From an uncultured Selenomonadales bacterium (GTDB lineage Bacteria > Bacillota > Negativicutes > Acidaminococcales > Acidaminococcaceae), in NCBI GenBank assembly GCA_900315805.1, contig ONAN01000006.1, positions 1 to 64,000 of the forward strand: a DNA stretch of 64,000 nt, in the 5' to 3' direction. Of this stretch, positions 21,359-23,354 are shown in pieces. The notes beneath the pieces were generated by a model. That model saw only the letters and a program-made list of their open reading frames with translations. It was not told where the DNA came from and searched no databases. How positions within the stretch are numbered: the stretch's first letter is position 1; each line of letters begins with the position of its first letter. Both the position numbers and the translations under genes were made by a program.

Positions 21359-21510
21359 GGACAAAATAAGTCCCGTGTGGCAAAAAAAGTCCCAAAATTT
21401 TTATGAACAAACCGTGAAGTCCCGGGAAAACCCGGACGGCAAATTTACGGAATCCCGCTTGTATGGCGGGGTTCCGTATTTTAAAAATACAAGTGGGACA
21501 AATTTAGTCC
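21359..21510. repeat. Two copies of a GGAC-N7-GTCC palindrome (candidate operator)
   Basis: GGACAAAATAAGTCC (21359-21373) and GGACAAATTTAGTCC (21496-21510) share the pattern GGACAAAWWWAGTCC. A further half-site GGACAAAAT (21516-21524) overlaps the -35 of the promoter at 21515-21543. Paired half-sites with an AT spacer look like a transcription-factor site. No regulator gene is adjacent. Confidence 0.55.
21447..21485 (+). terminator. Probable terminator of the dinB-phosphoesterase unit
   Basis: ACGGAATCCCGC (21447-21458) pairs with GCGGGGTTCCGT (21466-21477) around a 7-base loop, followed by ATTTTAAAAATA. A smaller CCGGG-AAAA-CCCGG hairpin (21422-21435) precedes it. The T tract is weak. Confidence 0.6.
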
Positions 21511-21514
21511 ATAC

Positions 21515-21543
21515 TGGACAAAATCGGTAACACGTGGTATACT
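21515..21543 (+). promoter_or_regulatory. Promoter of the mini-ORF transcript
   Basis: TGGACA (21515-21520), 17 bases, TATACT (21538-21543). The second GGAC-N7-GTCC palindrome ends five bases before the -35 and a half-site overlaps it, so the promoter looks regulated. Confidence 0.7.
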
Positions 21544-21609
21544 CAAGGTGCAGCAAGGAAAGGGAACCTTGGGAACCCGCCGGGCTGACAGAACAGGAGG
21601 TGCAGTAAC

Positions 21610-21666
21610 ATGTTGGAACGCATCGTAGCATTCTTATCCGAAATCGAAATCCTTCCCCTGGAATAA
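21610..21666 (+). CDS. Mini-ORF 1, 18 residues
   Basis: ATG 21610 follows a very strong AGGAGG site. The product MLERIVAFLSEIEILPLE is amphipathic, with acidic and hydrophobic residues, and matches nothing I know. It may be a leader peptide or a small protein. It lies in a transcript of about 250 nt that ends in a terminator at 21767-21803, with no larger ORF inside. Confidence 0.4.
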   Translation: MLERIVAFLSEIEILPLE

Positions 21667-21683
21667 CGGAACAGCCGTGACGC

Positions 21684-21729
21684 AAATCAATCCGCTTCAC
21701 CCGTGTGGCGGCGCAAGCCGCCGGATTCT
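21684..21729 (+). other. Structured RNA segment between the mini-ORFs
   Basis: GGCGGC-GCAA-GCCGCC forms a hairpin closed by a GNRA tetraloop. Outer segments ATCCG and CGGAT flank it and could extend the fold. It sits immediately upstream of the second mini-ORF's ribosome site. Confidence 0.45.
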
Positions 21730-21742
21730 ACAGGAGCATATA

Positions 21743-21766
21743 ATGAAACAGGATTTCAAGAATTAA
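21743..21766 (+). CDS. Mini-ORF 2, 7 residues
   Basis: ATG AAA CAG GAT TTC AAG AAT TAA, preceded by ACAGGAG at a fair distance. The product MKQDFKN is too short to classify. It ends one base before the terminator stem. Whether it is translated is unknown. Confidence 0.25.
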   Translation: MKQDFKN

Positions 21767-21803
21767 AGGCGATCAGGGAACAAAAACCTGACCGCCTTTT
21801 TTA
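21767..21803 (+). terminator. Terminator of the mini-ORF transcript
   Basis: AGGCGATCAGG (21767-21777) pairs with CCTGACCGCCT (21787-21797) with one mismatch, then a TTTTTT run. It isolates this unit from the trp promoter downstream. Confidence 0.85.
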
Positions 21804-21910: not shown

Positions 21911-21939
21911 TTGACGCCTGCCGGATGGGGTGGTATCCT
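21911..21939 (+). promoter_or_regulatory. Promoter of the trp operon
   Basis: TTGACG (21911-21916), 17 bases, TATCCT (21934-21939) with an extended TGG just upstream. It is followed directly by the T-box leader. Confidence 0.75.
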
Positions 21940-21945
21940 CAGTAC

Positions 21946-22228
21946 AAAAGTGAATAGCACCACGAAACCGAAGAGACGGAGATCAAGCCATCATAAGCGC
22001 TTACAGAGAGTCCGGGAAGCTGAAAGCCGGGTAGAGATGCTGGTTGGTAAATGGACCGTCGAGGGTGTGCCGAAATCGCAAGAGAGTATCGCACAACGCA
22101 GCGCCTGCGTTAAAGGCGAGGGATGTGTTGGCATCCTGCAAAGGGCGCGGAGTTTCCGCGAATCAAGGTGGTACCGCAGGTAATGATAATGAGCCTGTCC
22201 TTGTTGCACGCAAGGACAGGCTTTTTTG
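21946..22228 (+). promoter_or_regulatory. T-box riboswitch (tRNA-Trp) upstream of trpDCFBAEG
   Basis: The invariant T-box AAGGTGGTACCGCAG (22165-22179) is present. The upstream Stem I region includes AGAGAGTCCGGGAAGC. A probable UGG specifier (22052-22054, in GGTAAATGGACC) fits Trp. The terminator AGCCTGTCCTTG (22192-22203) pairs perfectly with CAAGGACAGGCT (22211-22222), followed by TTTTTT. Low tRNA-Trp charging would open the operon. Specifier choice is inferred from the downstream genes. Confidence 0.92.
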
Positions 22229-22337: not shown

Positions 22338-23354
22338 ATGTTGAAAGAATCTATCGCGAAATTGGCAGTCAAAGAAAACCTGAGCCGGGAAGAAGCCCTG
22401 GCCGATATGCGGGAAATCATGAGCGGCAAGGCGGACCCCGTTGAAATCGGGTCCTACCTGACGGCCCTGTCCATGAAGGGCGAGACGGTCGATGAAATCA
22501 CGGCCAGCGCCGAAGGCATGACGGAAGCCGCCGTGCAGATCCATCCGCAGGGCGATGTCCTGGAAATCGTCGGCACGGGCGGTGACAAGGCCTACACCTT
22601 CAATATTTCCACGACGAGCATGTTCGTCATCGCCGCCGCCGGCACGCACGTGGCCAAGCACGGCAACCGGGGCGTCTCGAGCAAGAGCGGCGCCGCCGAT
22701 GTGCTGGAGCAGCTGGGCGTCAAGATCAACAACACGCCGGCCTTCACGGAAAAAATGGAAAACGACATCGGCATCGCCTTCCTCTTCGCGCCGGTCTATC
22801 ATTCGGCCATGCGCTACGTCGCACCGGTCCGCAAGGCCCTGGGTATCCGCACCGTATTCAACATCCTCGGACCCTTGACCAACCCGGCCAACCCGGAAAT
22901 GGCCATCATCGGCGTCTACAGCAAAGAGCTGGTCCGCCCCATCGCGGAAGTGCTGCAGAAGCGCGGTCTGAAGCGGGCCCTCGTGGTCTTCGGCGACGAC
23001 GTGCTCGATGAAATTTCCGCTTCTTCCACGACGAGCGTGGCGGAACTGAAAGACGGCAGGATTACGGAATACACCCTGGATCCCCGCGATTTCGGCCTGG
23101 AACTGGGACAGAAGTCCGACCTGGTCGGCGGGGACCCTGCCGCCAACGCCCAGATCACGCTGGATATCCTGAACGGCAAGGAACGGGGCACGAAACGCAA
23201 CGCCGTCCTGCTGAACGCCGGCGCCGGCCTCTACCTGAGCGGCAAGGCGGACAACATGACGGACGCCATCCGGCTGGCAGCCGAACTGATCGACAGCGGC
23301 AAAGCCAAGGCGAAACTGGACGAATTCGCAGCCTACAGCCAGCAGGGACGGTAA
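22338..23354 (+). CDS. trpD: Anthranilate phosphoribosyltransferase
   Basis: 338 residues. It joins anthranilate to PRPP, the second step of Trp synthesis. The family signature GTGGDKAYTFNISTTSMFV binds PRPP, and a later RKALGIRTVFNILGPLTNPA segment is standard. Length is typical, with no fused glutaminase. ATG 22338 follows AAGGAGAGA; the frame is open upstream but overlaps the T-box. It is first of the operon, where trpE is usually first. Confidence 0.97.
   Translation: MLKESIAKLAVKENLSREEALADMREIMSGKADPVEIGSYLTALSMKGETVDEITASAEGMTEAAVQIHPQGDVLEIVGTGGDKAYTFNISTTSMFVIAAAGTHVAKHGNRGVSSKSGAADVLEQLGVKINNTPAFTEKMENDIGIAFLFAPVYHSAMRYVAPVRKALGIRTVFNILGPLTNPANPEMAIIGVYSKELVRPIAEVLQKRGLKRALVVFGDDVLDEISASSTTSVAELKDGRITEYTLDPRDFGLELGQKSDLVGGDPAANAQITLDILNGKERGTKRNAVLLNAGAGLYLSGKADNMTDAIRLAAELIDSGKAKAKLDEFAAYSQQGR

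Follow-up and report, generated by a model that had tools for sequence, protein, structure and literature searches.

A predicted microprotein gene restricted to the Acidaminococcaceae, with an operator of its own

We analyzed a 64,000-nucleotide stretch of DNA from an uncultured Selenomonadales bacterium (contig ONAN01000006.1), referred to here as the window. A compact predicted transcription unit lies on its + strand, with a purple-acid-phosphatase-like phosphoesterase gene (Pfam) upstream and a T-box leader (21962-22205) downstream, followed by a trpD-like gene near 22338. This T-box scores 78.7 bits, below the Rfam gathering score of 93; a second T-box in the window, at 2441-2639, scores higher. 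The unit and the region just upstream of it comprise the following elements:

21359-21374, + strand: partial operator copy GGACAAAATAAGTCCC, 136 bp upstream of the main operator
21495-21522, + strand: operator with three half-sites, GGGAC-AAATTTA-GTCC-ATACT-GGACAAA, found upstream of the micro-ORF in relatives
21515-21543, + strand: sigma-70-type promoter TGGACA-N17-TATACT with an extended -10 (TGG), 10/12, its spacing constant across relatives
21595-21600, + strand: Shine-Dalgarno sequence AGGAGG of ORF1; relatives have an SD-like stretch at the same place
21610-21666, + strand: ORF1, MLERIVAFLSEIEILPLE, 18 codons and stop, with orthologues, a peptide family and a pN/pS of ~0.06
21707-21722, + strand: hairpin GGCGGC-GCAA-GCCGCC, not conserved
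21743-21766, + strand: ORF2, MKQDFKN, 7 codons and stop, with the same architecture in relatives
21766-21803, + strand: Rho-independent terminator AAGGCGATCAGGGAACAAAAACCTGACCGCCTTTTTT, dG -16.4 kcal/mol

The last half-site of the operator overlaps the -35 element of the promoter. At the other end, the ORF2 stop codon overlaps the base of the terminator stem, which spans 21766-21798 and runs into a T-run to ~21803. The original prediction had listed a promoter, an AGGAGG motif, an 18-codon ORF, a hairpin, a 7-codon ORF and a terminator, and inspection of the sequence finds each of them in its place on the + strand. The unit begins further upstream than proposed, because the conserved operator starts at 21495. 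This operator, its regulon, and the recurrent placement of ORF2 on the terminator had been missed. Taken by itself, the window offers no more promoter-like sites than chance would give (3 versus 1.1 +/- 1.2 in region shuffles), and the fold is only mildly unusual (z = -1.98). A search of a plasmid collection gave no match.

Sequence conservation across genomes puts the unit well beyond chance. It is carried by two congeners, G004 (88% identity) and G009, the former with a similar copy of the upstream partial operator and the latter with no clear copy. Using these two and three further members of the family, together with the window, we built an operator-promoter pattern, GGGAC-N9-CC-N-TACTGGACAAA-N12-TG-N-TATAMT, which was searched with up to 3 mismatches and with a reversed-pattern control. 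The 49-bp operator-promoter is matched in 19 of 381 Negativicutes genomes, the reversed-pattern controls giving 0. Eighteen of these are among the 59 genomes of the Acidaminococcaceae, a single family of gut bacteria, with one copy per genome. The 19th match is a metagenome-assembled genome titled Selenomonas ruminantium (RUG14411; G256:C118, L072, L091), whose unit and the one in G004 (RUG237) have the same sequence. This identity suggests mis-binning, which is probably the origin of the G256 unit. An exact, looser form of the pattern, scanned over 84,980 genomes, returned 19 stretches, nearly all titled Acidaminococcaceae or Phascolarctobacterium. The other titles are uncultured Selenomonadales or Negativicutes, Avacidaminococcus, Selenomonas ruminantium and, twice, Acholeplasmataceae, and the units of the two Acholeplasmataceae-titled assemblies match those of the family genomes G022 and G026. 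One of the 19 stretches, L089, is a second site, in front of an Fe-ADH gene, rather than a micro-ORF unit. Judged from these searches, the operator-promoter occurs essentially only in the Acidaminococcaceae. The conserved operator, promoter, Shine-Dalgarno sequence and terminator together support the autonomous transcript that had been predicted.

The three-half-site motif GGGAC-N7-GTCC-N5-GGACAAA also precedes transport and catabolic genes (loci L122, L123-L135 and L189-L193). A related operator stands before an ABC operon that encodes a Methyltransf_21 protein, SBP_bac_6 proteins, a fused permease and an ATPase. It is found in G000 (G000:C11:4837-4864, L122), G004, G009, G078-080, G023, G035, G029, G076, the g2 genomes and others. 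The neighborhood of this operon is conserved, with a divergent DtxR-family regulator, an FkbM-type methyltransferase, one or two SBP genes and a fused permease (L125/L190/L191/L192). Between operator and SBP lies a conserved GTAAACTGTAAGCAGG-like sequence, perhaps an unusual promoter, perhaps a second regulator site. Phascolarctobacterium-type genomes have further related operators before a DctP TRAP operon and before a GDPD gene, and others precede the KduI gene (kduI) in G009 and an iron alcohol dehydrogenase (Fe-ADH) gene in G030; in G016, a weaker site precedes a glycerol-3-phosphate-dehydrogenase-like gene. The kduI, TRAP/GDPD and ADH targets were each seen in only one or two genomes, and the carbon theme is therefore thin. 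We considered the DtxR-family protein as the regulator acting at the operator and rejected it, since its gene is present whether or not the operator is found: it occurs in 52 of 59 family genomes, many without the operator. The solute-binding protein, present in 57 of the 59, does not track the operator either. The shared operator possibly defines the regulon of an undescribed global regulator.

Every operator-promoter of a unit is followed, 30-78 nt past the -10 element, by an SD-like stretch and an ORF of 18-19 codons. ORF1 is 100% identical in G004 and 94% in G009. The encoded peptides share the core MTF.KFVKAL....FY.VH and differ in length by at most one residue in the alignment (MTFKKFVEALCNMKFYMVH, MTFEKFVKALYQMNLYFIH, MLESIVKALYRVQFYYVH and MLEKMLKAFYEFQVLYIH, compared with MLERIVAFLSEIEILPLE in the genus of the window). 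Outside that genus the C-terminus FY.[VI]H is conserved, with ILPLE in its place inside it. The N-terminal stretch is modestly amphipathic, borderline against shuffles, and the peptides, which contain charged residues, show only moderate hydrophobicity. An HMM of the peptide finds 25 true matches in the family (E <= 7.4e-4, with noise at E >= 0.04), in 19 of 59 genomes. Beyond the Acidaminococcaceae, the same search over 381 genomes of the class found the peptide family only in G256; weak matches in G223 and G267 were rejected as chance matches inside coding sequence. Six units (G077, G029, G078, G079, G080 and G030) contain a tandem pair of micro-ORFs, and in G078 the two ORF1 copies differ mostly by synonymous changes. 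In G015, the peptide is retained behind a promoter without the operator, and the peptide is therefore the conserved entity. We counted changes in the style of Nei and Gojobori in five separate pairs, hand-chosen with one per lineage, and found 26.5 changes at 51 synonymous sites versus 7.5 at 225 nonsynonymous sites. The pooled pN/pS of ~0.06 (p ~3e-13) indicates strong purifying selection. Of the roles originally entertained, that of a small protein gene is thus supported by a Shine-Dalgarno sequence and by an ORF1 under purifying selection across genomes. On this comparative evidence, we regard the unit as a real and conserved microprotein gene that is confined to this family and has an operator of its own.

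Most units have a second ORF, 5-16 codons long, that runs up to the terminator stem. In 15 of 18 units this ORF starts with ATG, has 5-11 codons and stops no more than a few bases from where the stem begins, most often overlapping it by exactly one base. Shuffled spacers give an expectation of 1.3 for such endings, and of 0.17 for those having an SD match of 4 or more bases, for which 11 were observed; the 18 units represent about six lineages and are hence not independent. In G022 and G030 the ORF extends further into the stem, and G072 has no such ORF. The two congeners encode MRQDFKN and MKTDFKK, and the peptides across units vary (MKQDFKN, MKIGYKK, MDSNWIK, MHSEL, MKKQKTTKDIK), so position, rather than product, seems to be conserved. 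A ribosome halted at the ORF2 stop codon would lie over the terminator's 5' arm. It is conceivable, if rather unlikely in our view, that ribosomes on ORF2 set termination or the stability of the 3' end and thereby the dose of microprotein, in a two-ORF unit under an undescribed global carbon regulator of the Acidaminococcaceae.

The transcript could also act as a dual-function RNA that encodes a peptide and base-pairs with target mRNAs in trans, comparable to SgrS, AzuCR and VcdRP. Its length of ~250 nt, its own promoter and terminator, and a non-coding spacer of up to 163 nt would fit this description. However, the spacer changes freely in length (15 to 163 nt from the last micro-ORF to the terminator) and in sequence while ORF1 stays, and a conserved base-pairing segment beside ORF1 was looked for and not seen, the 5'UTR and spacer varying among relatives; gapped pairwise identities of the spacer, inflated by cheap gaps, were set aside. 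We therefore do not assign the unit to the dual-function class. The hairpin that had been emphasized for its GNRA loop fares no better: G004, the closest relative, has a CCAG loop where the window has GCAA, and G009, the third genome, lacks the stem. We thus rejected it as a functional element. The proposed covariance analysis yielded almost nothing, the consensus fold of three relatives gaining -0.74 of -31.3 kcal/mol from covariation in what is a rough test only, as the alignment rows are cut at different ends. No Rfam family was found in the unit at gathering or relaxed thresholds. Nothing in these comparisons suggests a conserved structured RNA, and we consider a base-pairing role unlikely.

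We find it doubtful that the peptide is a pheromone of the SHP/Rgg type, whose FY.[VI]H part would be exported and read by the operator-binding regulator to give autoinduction. A peptide of 18-19 aa, a C-terminus conserved outside the genus of the window, an operator over the promoter and tandem copies would all be expected of such a system. Against it, the same operator precedes metabolic genes, the C-terminus is altered in the genus of the window, and no Rgg/RRNPP-type regulator was recognized beside ten units whose neighboring ORFs were read by eye.

We compared the surroundings of the unit between genomes, naming neighbors outside the window from sequence reading rather than domain search. 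The order is dinB-like gene, unit, SH3-like gene, T-box and trpD-like gene in G018; YitT-like gene, unit and a convergent ksgA-like gene in G022 and G033; and AbrB-like gene, unit and glycerol kinase-like gene in G072. In G029, a cobalamin riboswitch lies downstream of the unit. Among the units compared, a conserved same-strand downstream gene was not found. Downstream genes thus differ between lineages, which excludes a cis-acting leader, and the differing locations of the unit argue for action in trans, the simplest reading. The idea of a translated leader, with terminator read-through into downstream genes (here trp) controlled by ribosomes that translate ORF2 or ORF1, could draw on the ORF2 stop on the terminator stem in most units and on the trp T-box leader that follows here, a T-box and a trpD-like gene also following the unit in G018. 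We nevertheless judge it very unlikely, given that the genes downstream are not the same throughout and in several genomes run convergently (ksgA-like), that a T-box leader and a promoter-like site (21911-21939) of their own precede the trp genes, and that another gene separates the unit from the trp genes in G018. Finally, a type I toxin-antitoxin system, with ORF1 encoding a small membrane toxin that an antisense RNA keeps in check, would account for very short hydrophobic peptides that are sometimes duplicated, as in Ibs, but is hardly plausible in view of antisense promoters in no excess (5 observed versus 8.2 expected), a strong Shine-Dalgarno sequence near the transcript start, and peptides with charged residues and only moderate hydrophobicity.

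Our preferred reading, held with moderate confidence, is that the unit is an mRNA for a regulatory microprotein that belongs to a carbon and transport regulon and tunes a transporter or enzyme. A putative regulator would bind the three half-sites, overlapping the -35 box, and would switch the transcript of the unit jointly with the carbon and solute-uptake genes that bear similar sites. The stand-alone mRNA would then yield the microprotein of 18-19 aa, which most likely would bind one of the transporters or enzymes in that regulon and tune it; the identity of this partner is a guess. The unit, its operator, the peptide family and the selection on it, the regulon sites and the ORF2 layout are read from sequence; we infer transcription and translation in vivo, the direction of regulation, and the carbon theme. 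By analogy to known systems, the microprotein probably tunes carbon metabolism.

In other bacteria, small RNAs with an ORF for a small protein are under carbon-linked regulators. CRP represses vcdRP, and VcdP binds citrate synthase; AzuCR is also CRP-repressed, and AzuC activates the glycerol-3-phosphate dehydrogenase GlpD; sgrST is activated by SgrR (PMC8672173). Spot 42 encodes SpfP, a peptide of 15 aa (PMC12119635). VcdRP from Vibrio cholerae resembles our unit as a short autonomous RNA with a small ORF and a control site at its promoter, and VcdP acts in trans on metabolism through citrate synthase, a role analogous to that proposed for the ORF1 peptide. However, VcdP has 29 aa, compared with 18-19 here, without visible sequence relation and under a different regulator, and no base-pairing segment is shown in our unit. 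AzuCR from Escherichia coli is a small-protein RNA of a carbon regulon, as we propose for our unit; its peptide AzuC has no sequence relation to ours, and our unit adds a terminal second ORF and tandem ORF1 copies. Spot 42 also encodes a very short peptide and, as proposed for our unit, is linked to carbon control, but it is a well-known base-pairing RNA, whereas here the peptide is conserved and the RNA part is not. SgrS/SgrT from E. coli has a dedicated transcription factor for a transcript that encodes a small protein affecting sugar metabolism, an arrangement like the one proposed here; beside our unit, in contrast, no sgrR-like gene was recognized, and there is no conserved base-pairing part. 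The Ibs/Sib type I toxins are peptides of 18-19 aa present in multiple copies and are similar in these two respects, but our unit has no antisense promoter above chance, a different composition and a regulated operator. The best reading by analogy is that the microprotein would work like SgrT, AzuC, VcdP and SpfP while being unrelated to them in sequence.

Gene callers usually overlook peptides of 18-19 aa, and to our knowledge few have been described beyond the model proteobacteria and bacilli. The layout in which an ORF ends on the terminator poses a testable question about the translation of terminal mini-ORFs and intrinsic termination. For the Acidaminococcaceae, including Phascolarctobacterium and its rumen relatives, the peptide family offers a ready-made alignment, an operator and candidate co-regulated genes, and simple pull-downs would make both the regulator and the partner findable.
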